From assembly GCF_024753565.1 (NCBI RefSeq), contig NZ_JANTPT010000001.1, positions 1,569,969 to 1,633,968 on the forward strand: a stretch of DNA of 64,000 nucleotides. Direction: 5' to 3'. The notes under the pieces were generated by a model. That model saw only the letters and a program-made list of their open reading frames with translations, had not been told where the DNA came from and did not search any database. Origin of the DNA: Mechercharimyces sp. CAU 1602. GTDB taxonomy: Bacteria > Bacillota > Bacilli > Thermoactinomycetales > JANTPT01. Below, piece after piece: positions 25,365-51,987 of this stretch (position 1 is the first letter of the stretch; each line of letters opens with the position of its first letter). The position numbers were made by a program, and so were the translations under genes.

Positions 25365-25393
25365 AGTATACCCACCATTATCCTATATGTCAA
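25365..25393 (-). promoter_or_regulatory. Sigma-A promoter of thrS
   Basis: TTGACA (25388-25393), a 17-base spacer and TATACT (25365-25370) on the minus strand. The -35 TTGACA contains the TGA stop codon of ytxC. Confidence 0.9.
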
Positions 25394-49895: not shown

Positions 49896-51872
49896 CTATC
49901 CCTCAGATTCGCCACCTCGCGGACCTCTCGCTCCTCGTGGACCGCGGGGACCACGAGGTCCCGTTGCACCGGTCGCTCCTCTGAGCGAGTCGTTACGAAA
50001 TGCCGTTATGGTTGCATAAAAATCAAACGAACCACCTTTTACAGGGGCTATTTCTTGGAAAGCCCCGTCAGTCGTAGGGAAATTATTGGAGGTGGCTGAC
50101 CCAGTTAGATATACACAGTTGCTAGTATCAACCGCTATATCAGAACCTAGATCTTGTCCTGTCCCCCCAAGAAAAGTGGAATATAAAATCCCACGCCCAC
50201 TCGAACTTACTTGCGTCACAAAATAGTTCATCGATCCCACTCTACCCAGGTGAGCTTGATACGCGTCGGAGGTTATCGGAAAATCCGTAGATAATGTCCC
50301 CCCCACAACCCATGCGTTTTGATCACGGTCAACCGCAATTCCCGCGCCTATATCTGATACACTTCCCCCTAAAAAGGTGGAGAACTTCAGCATACTTCCC
50401 ACATCATTTAATTTGCTCACAAACGCCGTGCCATCTTCTGCCTTATTTATAGTCTGAAAAGCAACCGCGGTAGTTGGAAAATCTCTTGAAAAAGCGGTCC
50501 CTGTCACGTATGCGTTCTCAAAAGAATCAACAGTAATAGCACATCCACTATCCCCCCTACTTCCACCTAAATAGGTGGAATAGGCAAGTGAGGTTCCCTG
50601 CGCATTTAATTTAGTGATAAAGGCATTGTTATTATTCATTCCTCCTAGTTGCGTCTGAAAAGCACCACTGGTAATGGGGAAATCTTCAGAATCTGTAAAG
50701 CCTGTAATATACGTATTATGATTGGAGTCAAGAGCGATATCTTCACCGAAATCTACACCCGATCCACCGATATAAGTAGCAAATAAGAGCGAACTACCTG
50801 TCGGGTTTAGCTTCGCTATATATGCGTCTTCATTTCCCCCAAACACGGTTTGAAAAGCACCACTCGTCACGGGAAAGTTAGTCGATTGAGTTGCTCCTCC
50901 TACATAGGCATGACCATCGTCGTCAATCGCCACCTTCGCATTTGGTTCCTGACCCCCACCACCCAAATACGTAGAATAAAAGAGGGTTGAACCCGTAGCA
51001 GATAACTTTGTAATAAAGGCATCTGTTTCGCCCTTTAGCCCCGTTTGAAAAGCACCACTTGTCACAGGAAAGTTAAATGAGTTGGTTTGCCCCGATACAA
51101 ATACGGTACGGTTACTTGCGACCGCAATCCCAAGTCCCCCATCGATATTACTTCCTCCTAGATAGGTAGAAAAAAGAAGCGACGTTCCACTAGCGTTTAG
51201 CTTACTTACAAACGCATCCACCTGCCTAAGCCTAGTCTGAAACACTCCACTTGTCACAGGAAAATTAGTTGAGCTTGTATTTCCTGTGACATAGGCATTT
51301 CCATCATGATCAACTGCTATCGCTAGTCCAAAATCTGAACCGCTCCCTGCCAGATAGGTGGAATAAATCACAACAGGATCTACTATTAATGTCTTCGTTT
51401 CGTCGTACTCCCCTTCTATGTTAAAGCCGATATCTTCATCTGCATACTGTTGGTACGATGTTACAATCGGTCTACCCCAATTCTGCTGAAAACTTATCGG
51501 CTTACGATCCGTTAGCCATCCCTTCCCCCATTGTAACTGCATGTTCCCCTCATGATCAATAAAAGTAGCTTTCACACCACTAAACCAAAATCGAATATCA
51601 GTTACCTTCGCCCCTGGCGAAACTTCAAATTCATACTTTAACTCCCGTCCTTTATAAAGAATGGCATCAATTCCATCCCACAAACGTCGATATACGATCT
51701 TATCGTCTTCCTCATGTAAGCGAACCCCAGCATCATGGTTTCTAAAATGGAGTCCTAGAGGAGAAACATTTCCTTCAGGGTGGGAAAATAATATTCGATC
51801 CCGCTGACAGATTAGGGTGTACTGGTCATAAGGAATGTGAAACGAAATATCTTCTGCATGCTGGATTGACAC
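49896..51872 (-). CDS. Seven-repeat SBBP beta-propeller protein with C-terminal collagen-like tail
   Basis: A 658-residue protein in three parts. Residues 1-165 resemble the N-terminal domain found before SBBP repeats (DIGFNIEGEYDETKTLIVDP at its end). Residues ~169-625 hold seven SBBP repeats of ~57-66 residues, each like YSTYLGGSxxDxGxxIAVD then NAYVTGxTxSxNFPVTSGAFQT; seven suits a closed seven-bladed propeller. The last 27 residues carry G-X-Y triplets from Gly632 (GATGATGPRGPRGPRGARG), a collagen-like tail. No signal peptide is visible. GTG 51872 follows GGGAGGAAGG. Collagen-like tails are seen in spore-surface proteins of Bacilli, so a spore-coat or exosporium role is inferred. Confidence 0.85.
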   Translation of the reverse strand: MSIQHAEDISFHIPYDQYTLICQRDRILFSHPEGNVSPLGLHFRNHDAGVRLHEEDDKIVYRRLWDGIDAILYKGRELKYEFEVSPGAKVTDIRFWFSGVKATFIDHEGNMQLQWGKGWLTDRKPISFQQNWGRPIVTSYQQYADEDIGFNIEGEYDETKTLIVDPVVIYSTYLAGSGSDFGLAIAVDHDGNAYVTGNTSSTNFPVTSGVFQTRLRQVDAFVSKLNASGTSLLFSTYLGGSNIDGGLGIAVASNRTVFVSGQTNSFNFPVTSGAFQTGLKGETDAFITKLSATGSTLFYSTYLGGGGQEPNAKVAIDDDGHAYVGGATQSTNFPVTSGAFQTVFGGNEDAYIAKLNPTGSSLLFATYIGGSGVDFGEDIALDSNHNTYITGFTDSEDFPITSGAFQTQLGGMNNNNAFITKLNAQGTSLAYSTYLGGSRGDSGCAITVDSFENAYVTGTAFSRDFPTTAVAFQTINKAEDGTAFVSKLNDVGSMLKFSTFLGGSVSDIGAGIAVDRDQNAWVVGGTLSTDFPITSDAYQAHLGRVGSMNYFVTQVSSSGRGILYSTFLGGTGQDLGSDIAVDTSNCVYLTGSATSNNFPTTDGAFQEIAPVKGGSFDFYATITAFRNDSLRGATGATGPRGPRGPRGARGPRGGESEG

Positions 51873-51987
51873 ACGCCTTCCTCCCTTTATACCTATTTCT
51901 TCATAGCATATGATTAACTAAAAGCGACAGTTCCAGCATATGTAAAATATTTTTAAATGCGTTCATCCACGTACTTTTCAAAGACAT

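Follow-up and report, generated by a model that had tools for sequence, protein, structure and literature searches.

The collagen-like proteins known from spore surfaces consist, to our knowledge, of an extended G-X-Y stalk that carries the head at its C-terminus. The closest examples are BclA and BclB of the exosporium nap in the B. cereus group and BclA1-3 of C. difficile. Transcription of bclA and bclB depends on sigma-K, with a B. thuringiensis bclA promoter reading CAC-N16-CATATGTTA (PMC4750369), and bclA1-3 of C. difficile are likewise sigma-K dependent (PMC3789822). Large radiations of collagen-like genes have also been described in spore formers, namely in Pasteuria ramosa and in Thermoactinomyces sp. 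DSM 45891, for which 47 such genes are reported (PMC13233619).

Here, we analyzed a gene in a 64,000-nucleotide stretch of the genome of Mechercharimyces sp. CAU 1602 (the window) and its relatives in the same genome. As in the BclA/BclB systems, a collagen-like segment occurs in a spore former, a globular domain stands at one end, and the promoter sequence matches the sigma-K type (AC-N16/17-CATATGYTA). In contrast to them, the polarity is reversed, with the head at the N-terminus and the collagen at the C-terminus; the head is a propeller instead of a jelly-roll; and 40 genes of a single genome carry 8–22 triplets closing in an Arg block. The window protein has only a few residues after its G-X-Y block and thus no C-terminal jelly-roll head of the BclA type. 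The sets of P. ramosa and DSM 45891 resemble the present one in that a spore former has undergone a species-specific radiation to about 40 collagen-like genes. However, the present family has propellers, of which the text of PMC13233619 makes no mention, and the present genome is without ordered gene triplets. It also has no LanM gene, in which it differs from DSM 45891 with its LanM-type synthetase TlaM (PMC13343206), and the two are very probably not the same strain. Judging from the sequence features described below, it is likely that these roughly 40 proteins form a lineage-specific spore-surface family expressed in the mother cell, in which a propeller head sits on a short collagen stalk rich in Arg.

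The window gene and its relatives

The gene (49896..51872, minus strand) starts with GTG, encodes 658 amino acids and is preceded by the ribosome-binding site GGGAGG, read from the sequence at 51880..51885 (minus). Its product consists of an N-terminal domain with DUF7948 (51372..51815, minus; approximately residues 20–167, beta-sandwich-like in the model), a seven-bladed SBBP propeller (49995..51371, minus; residues 168–626) and a collagen-like tail (49899..49979, minus; residues 632–658). The initial annotation had counted seven SBBP repeats, and Pfam gives the same number (PF06739; 134.9 bits against a gathering score of 20.5, E 8e-40). Its reading of eight G-X-Y triplets from Gly632 also holds (GAT GAT GPR GPR GPR GAR GPR GGE, plus SEG), as does its statement that no signal peptide is seen, none being evident by eye in the window protein. 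It had, however, overlooked DUF7948 (PF25778; residues 57–167, 92 bits against a gathering score of 27, E 7e-26), whose match spans only positions 103–214 of the 214 in the profile. The Collagen profile (PF01391) reaches 13.5 bits in the window protein, under the cut-off of 27.2 bits that 22 other family genes pass.

In addition, a gene that had been treated singly proved to be one of 41. Searching the 2.93-Mb genome with the window protein returned 48 matches, mostly with 45–54% identity to it, and reading the frames gave 41 intact family genes including the window gene, 40 of them with a G-X-Y tail. The genes are scattered over the genome, some of them grouped locally in twos to fours, and the propellers share on average 53% and the DUF7948 domains 38% identity. 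Three tailed members of about 500 amino acids are without DUF7948 and begin directly at the propeller. The sole intact gene without a tail (C1:1407336-1409435) sits on by far the longest branch of the family tree, at the midpoint root, which is compatible with, but no proof of, a single gain of the tail. Long and short tails require 7–8 changes on the same tree. Outside the family, only one collagen-like frame of 59 codons was found in this genome (E<=0.001), and the family therefore comprises essentially its only collagen-like proteins.

Some further loci are related to the family in part. A 77-codon remnant (C1:1349432-1349593) consisting of the last blade and a degraded collagen tail is a decayed member, and a member cut to 230 codons (C1:83169-83861), of which DUF7948 and the first part of blade 1 are left, is apparently a pseudogene. 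An ORF with DUF7948 only and no propeller (C1:693002-693880, about 290 amino acids) has the FVPNQGQ N-terminus found in ordinary DUF7948 proteins.

Such ordinary DUF7948-SBBP proteins of other Bacillota, with four loci as examples, share the order of DUF7948 followed by SBBP repeats. Unlike the family, they occur in one or a few copies per genome, and their C-termini consist of the propeller or other domains, never of a G-X-Y tail in those read. SBBP relatives are present in a few of 42 genomes of the order. Among the frames read from these 42 genomes and from samples at the level of the class (399 genomes) and of the phylum (398 genomes), all from outside the genus and family of the present genome, there was no homologue bearing the tail. 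A tail profile at E<=1e-8 matched this genome only among 399 genomes. A contig scan with the window protein yielded a single distant SBBP match and says little about other species, and a tblastn search of plasmids matched SBBP proteins, the best of which, read through, had no tail. The initial annotation would have abandoned its reading if homologues lacked the tail; this condition cuts both ways, as within the genome 40 family genes have it, while every SBBP C-terminus read outside is without. We found no description of SBBP–collagen fusions in the open-access literature searched. Long collagen-like ORFs are numerous in other genomes of the order (G036, G037 and G039, genus g25; five loci), where LanM is present in several copies as well; these are apparently separate collagen radiations.

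Upstream regions and sporulation genes

Between -65 and -30, the motif CATANNNTA, the -10 consensus of sigma-K, is found in 18/36 family genes as compared to 8/117 controls (p=4e-8), the controls being the other genes of the loci examined and not the whole genome. Together with an AC 15–18 nt upstream, it is found in 12/36 family genes and 5/117 controls (p=1.5e-5). Gibbs sampling upstream of the same number of members (36) converged on tCATAgGaTA, located mostly at -37 to -45, with a score of 204 as compared to 140–154 in shuffles. The window gene itself has AAC-N17-CATATGCTA upstream, with the sigma-K-type -10 element CATATGCTA at 51904..51912 (minus) and the AC of a putative -35 element 17 nt ahead of it at 51930..51931 (minus); this arrangement closely resembles the Bacillus bclA promoter read by sigma-K (PMC4750369). 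The two-block architecture of sigma-K promoters and its spacing have been described (PMC517825). A perfect -10 element is absent from half of the family: some of these members lie downstream in tandem clusters or have uncertain starts, and others simply show none. As the -10 element of sigma-E resembles that of sigma-K (PMC3789822), the safe wording for these candidate promoters is a mother-cell sigma factor, most likely sigma-K. AC-N15-18-CATANNNTA likewise stands upstream of three window genes outside the family, at 25389 (minus), 35911 (plus) and 44835 (minus), whose expression may belong to the mother cell.

The genome contains intact sigE and sigG, sigK in pieces, and cotE; CotZ-family coat proteins were not found in it. 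Gaps of about 18 and 65 kb separate the three sigK pieces (C1:306862-307125, 325469-325726 and 390705-390899). Each outer piece has a large serine recombinase next to it, and a 16-bp direct repeat, AATGAGATTACACTAA, is present at the second junction. The gene is thus split by two skin-like elements.

A role at the spore surface, as suggested by the initial annotation, gains indirect support from these data, namely from promoter sequences of the sigma-K type, which about half of the family including the window gene carries, from the presence of sigE, sigG, sigK and cotE, and from the precedent of sigma-K-driven collagen-like exosporium genes (PMC4750369, PMC3789822). Mother-cell-type promoters, proteins with no evident export signal, a family that supplies essentially all collagen-like proteins of the genome, and the BclA precedent together point to the spore surface. 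With about 40 related genes, many of them with predicted late-sporulation switches, the family would probably build a diversified spore surface jointly.

The main alternative, which we regard as unlikely, is that the proteins are secreted or vegetative cell-surface adhesins, whose propeller binds a ligand outside the cell while the basic collagen tail adheres to anionic wall polymers. Such a basic tail would suit teichoic acids, and collagen-like proteins of bacteria frequently act as adhesins or in biofilms (PMC8968730). However, neither a signal peptide nor an anchor of the LPXTG or S-layer kind is evident in the frames read, and the mother-cell-type motif in the upstream regions likewise argues against a vegetative function.

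The collagen-like tail and the propeller

No segment of the proteins is better conserved than the tail, whose mean entropy in the family alignment is 0.53, the propeller reaching 1.49 and DUF7948 2.08. Retention of the tail by 40 family genes is far beyond chance. Across the family, the tails proceed from neutral triplets to the Arg block and a short acidic end, the commonest triplets being GPR (131/512), followed by GAT, GPT, GAR and GRR. Conservation peaks in the Arg block, in the window protein GPRGPRGPRGARGPR (49917..49961, minus; residues 638–652). Over an Arg block of 11 residues, identity is 0.86 for the residues but 0.29 for third codon positions where residues agree. With synonymous sites saturated and residues conserved, the tail is therefore maintained by selection on the protein sequence. 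The initial annotation had pointed to a perfect 8-bp hairpin, which lies in the Arg block, and to a G+C-rich tail; both are present (68–72% G+C against about 44% in the surroundings), but neither carries information beyond the peptide, because an arm of 8 bp or more also arises in 20% of random synonymous recodings of the same peptide, whose mean G+C is 73% (72% observed). We therefore rejected both as DNA-level features, as they are expected from coding Gly-Pro-Arg. The idea of a tag common to unrelated proteins was rejected as well, the strong matches to the tail in this genome being only family members and one decayed remnant.

The Arg-rich C-terminus, for the initial annotation a putative anchoring or assembly tag, is most simply read as a triple-helix clamp that would at the same time serve as a basic anchor. 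Arginine at the Y position is reported to stabilize the triple helix nearly as well as hydroxyproline (PMC12862961); no trimerization domain was recognized in the proteins. The invariant spacing of the Arg residues, the strong positive charge and the absence of an evident export signal would also suit intracellular polyanion binders, whose tail contacts nucleic acid or polyphosphate and forms no triple helix. This reading has, in our view, a still smaller chance than an adhesin, as a strict glycine at every third position and neutral GAT and GPT triplets fit a triple helix and not simple charge. It is very improbable that the family is of little function and spreads by copy-paste and gene conversion, with tails alike through homogenization alone. 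Many copies, tandem clusters and a few decayed copies would agree with this, but the codon analysis contradicts it, the third positions of the tail being saturated despite conserved residues, and so do a dN/dS of 0.22 in the closest pair and 41 intact frames of about 2 kb each.

The family alignment was also used for structural modelling. In the AlphaFold2 model (mean pLDDT 88), the SBBP repeats form one closed seven-bladed propeller, as the initial annotation had proposed, next to an all-beta N-terminal domain; the tail is disordered in this monomer model. Taken alone (pLDDT 92), the N-terminal domain gives matches of middling strength (Z 7–10) to GLMP and to beta-sandwich domains of carbohydrate-active enzymes, a likeness that may reflect merely a shared arrangement. 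For the propeller, the best PDB match is the likewise seven-bladed propeller of CylK (7fh6, 7ron; Z 48, rmsd 1.7 A over 391 residues, 22% identity), a cyanobacterial alkylating enzyme without a collagen tail. That propeller and N-terminal domain form a CylK-like active site, with the tail merely oligomerizing, is nevertheless highly improbable, as the high Z concerns the propeller only, the N-terminal domain is DUF7948 and is missing altogether from three members, and an identity of 22% in a repeat fold is no sign of catalysis.

Among paralogs, blade variation is highest at offsets 8, 10, 12, 27 and 29 of each repeat. We do not claim diversifying selection there, given the saturation of synonymous sites and the differences at these offsets even between repeats within one protein.

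A possible assembly at the spore surface

Returning to the preferred reading of a mother-cell-expressed spore-surface family, the features described above can be combined into a model. Late in sporulation, the mother cell would turn on most family genes via sigma-K promoters, and the proteins, devoid of an evident export signal, would be made in its cytoplasm. Three chains would then associate via their C-terminal G-X-Y tails, with the Gly-Pro-Arg clamp at the extreme C-terminus stabilizing the triple helix without hydroxyproline. The same strongly basic clamp might dock on the underlying spore coat or exosporium layer, so that the DUF7948-propeller heads would point outward and, varying among paralogs, give a mosaic surface. 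The arrangement would be analogous to the BclA nap with its polarity reversed, the head being N-terminal and the collagen stalk and anchor C-terminal. More tentatively, and with a rather low chance of being correct, the surface could be combinatorial: one scaffold in 40 variants, with blades varying at fixed repeat positions and near-identical tails that would allow mixed trimers.

If this combinatorial surface exists, it would represent a diversified recognition coat built on an SBBP scaffold independently of BclA. An N-terminal propeller head on a short, near-invariant Gly-Pro-Arg tail, encoded by 40 genes, would be an independent solution, and would add a distinct family to the collagen-like radiations of Pasteuria and its relatives. 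If the proposed role of the tail is true, it would also provide a naturally occurring triple-helix clamp that needs no hydroxyproline and, possibly, a portable tag for anchoring to spores.
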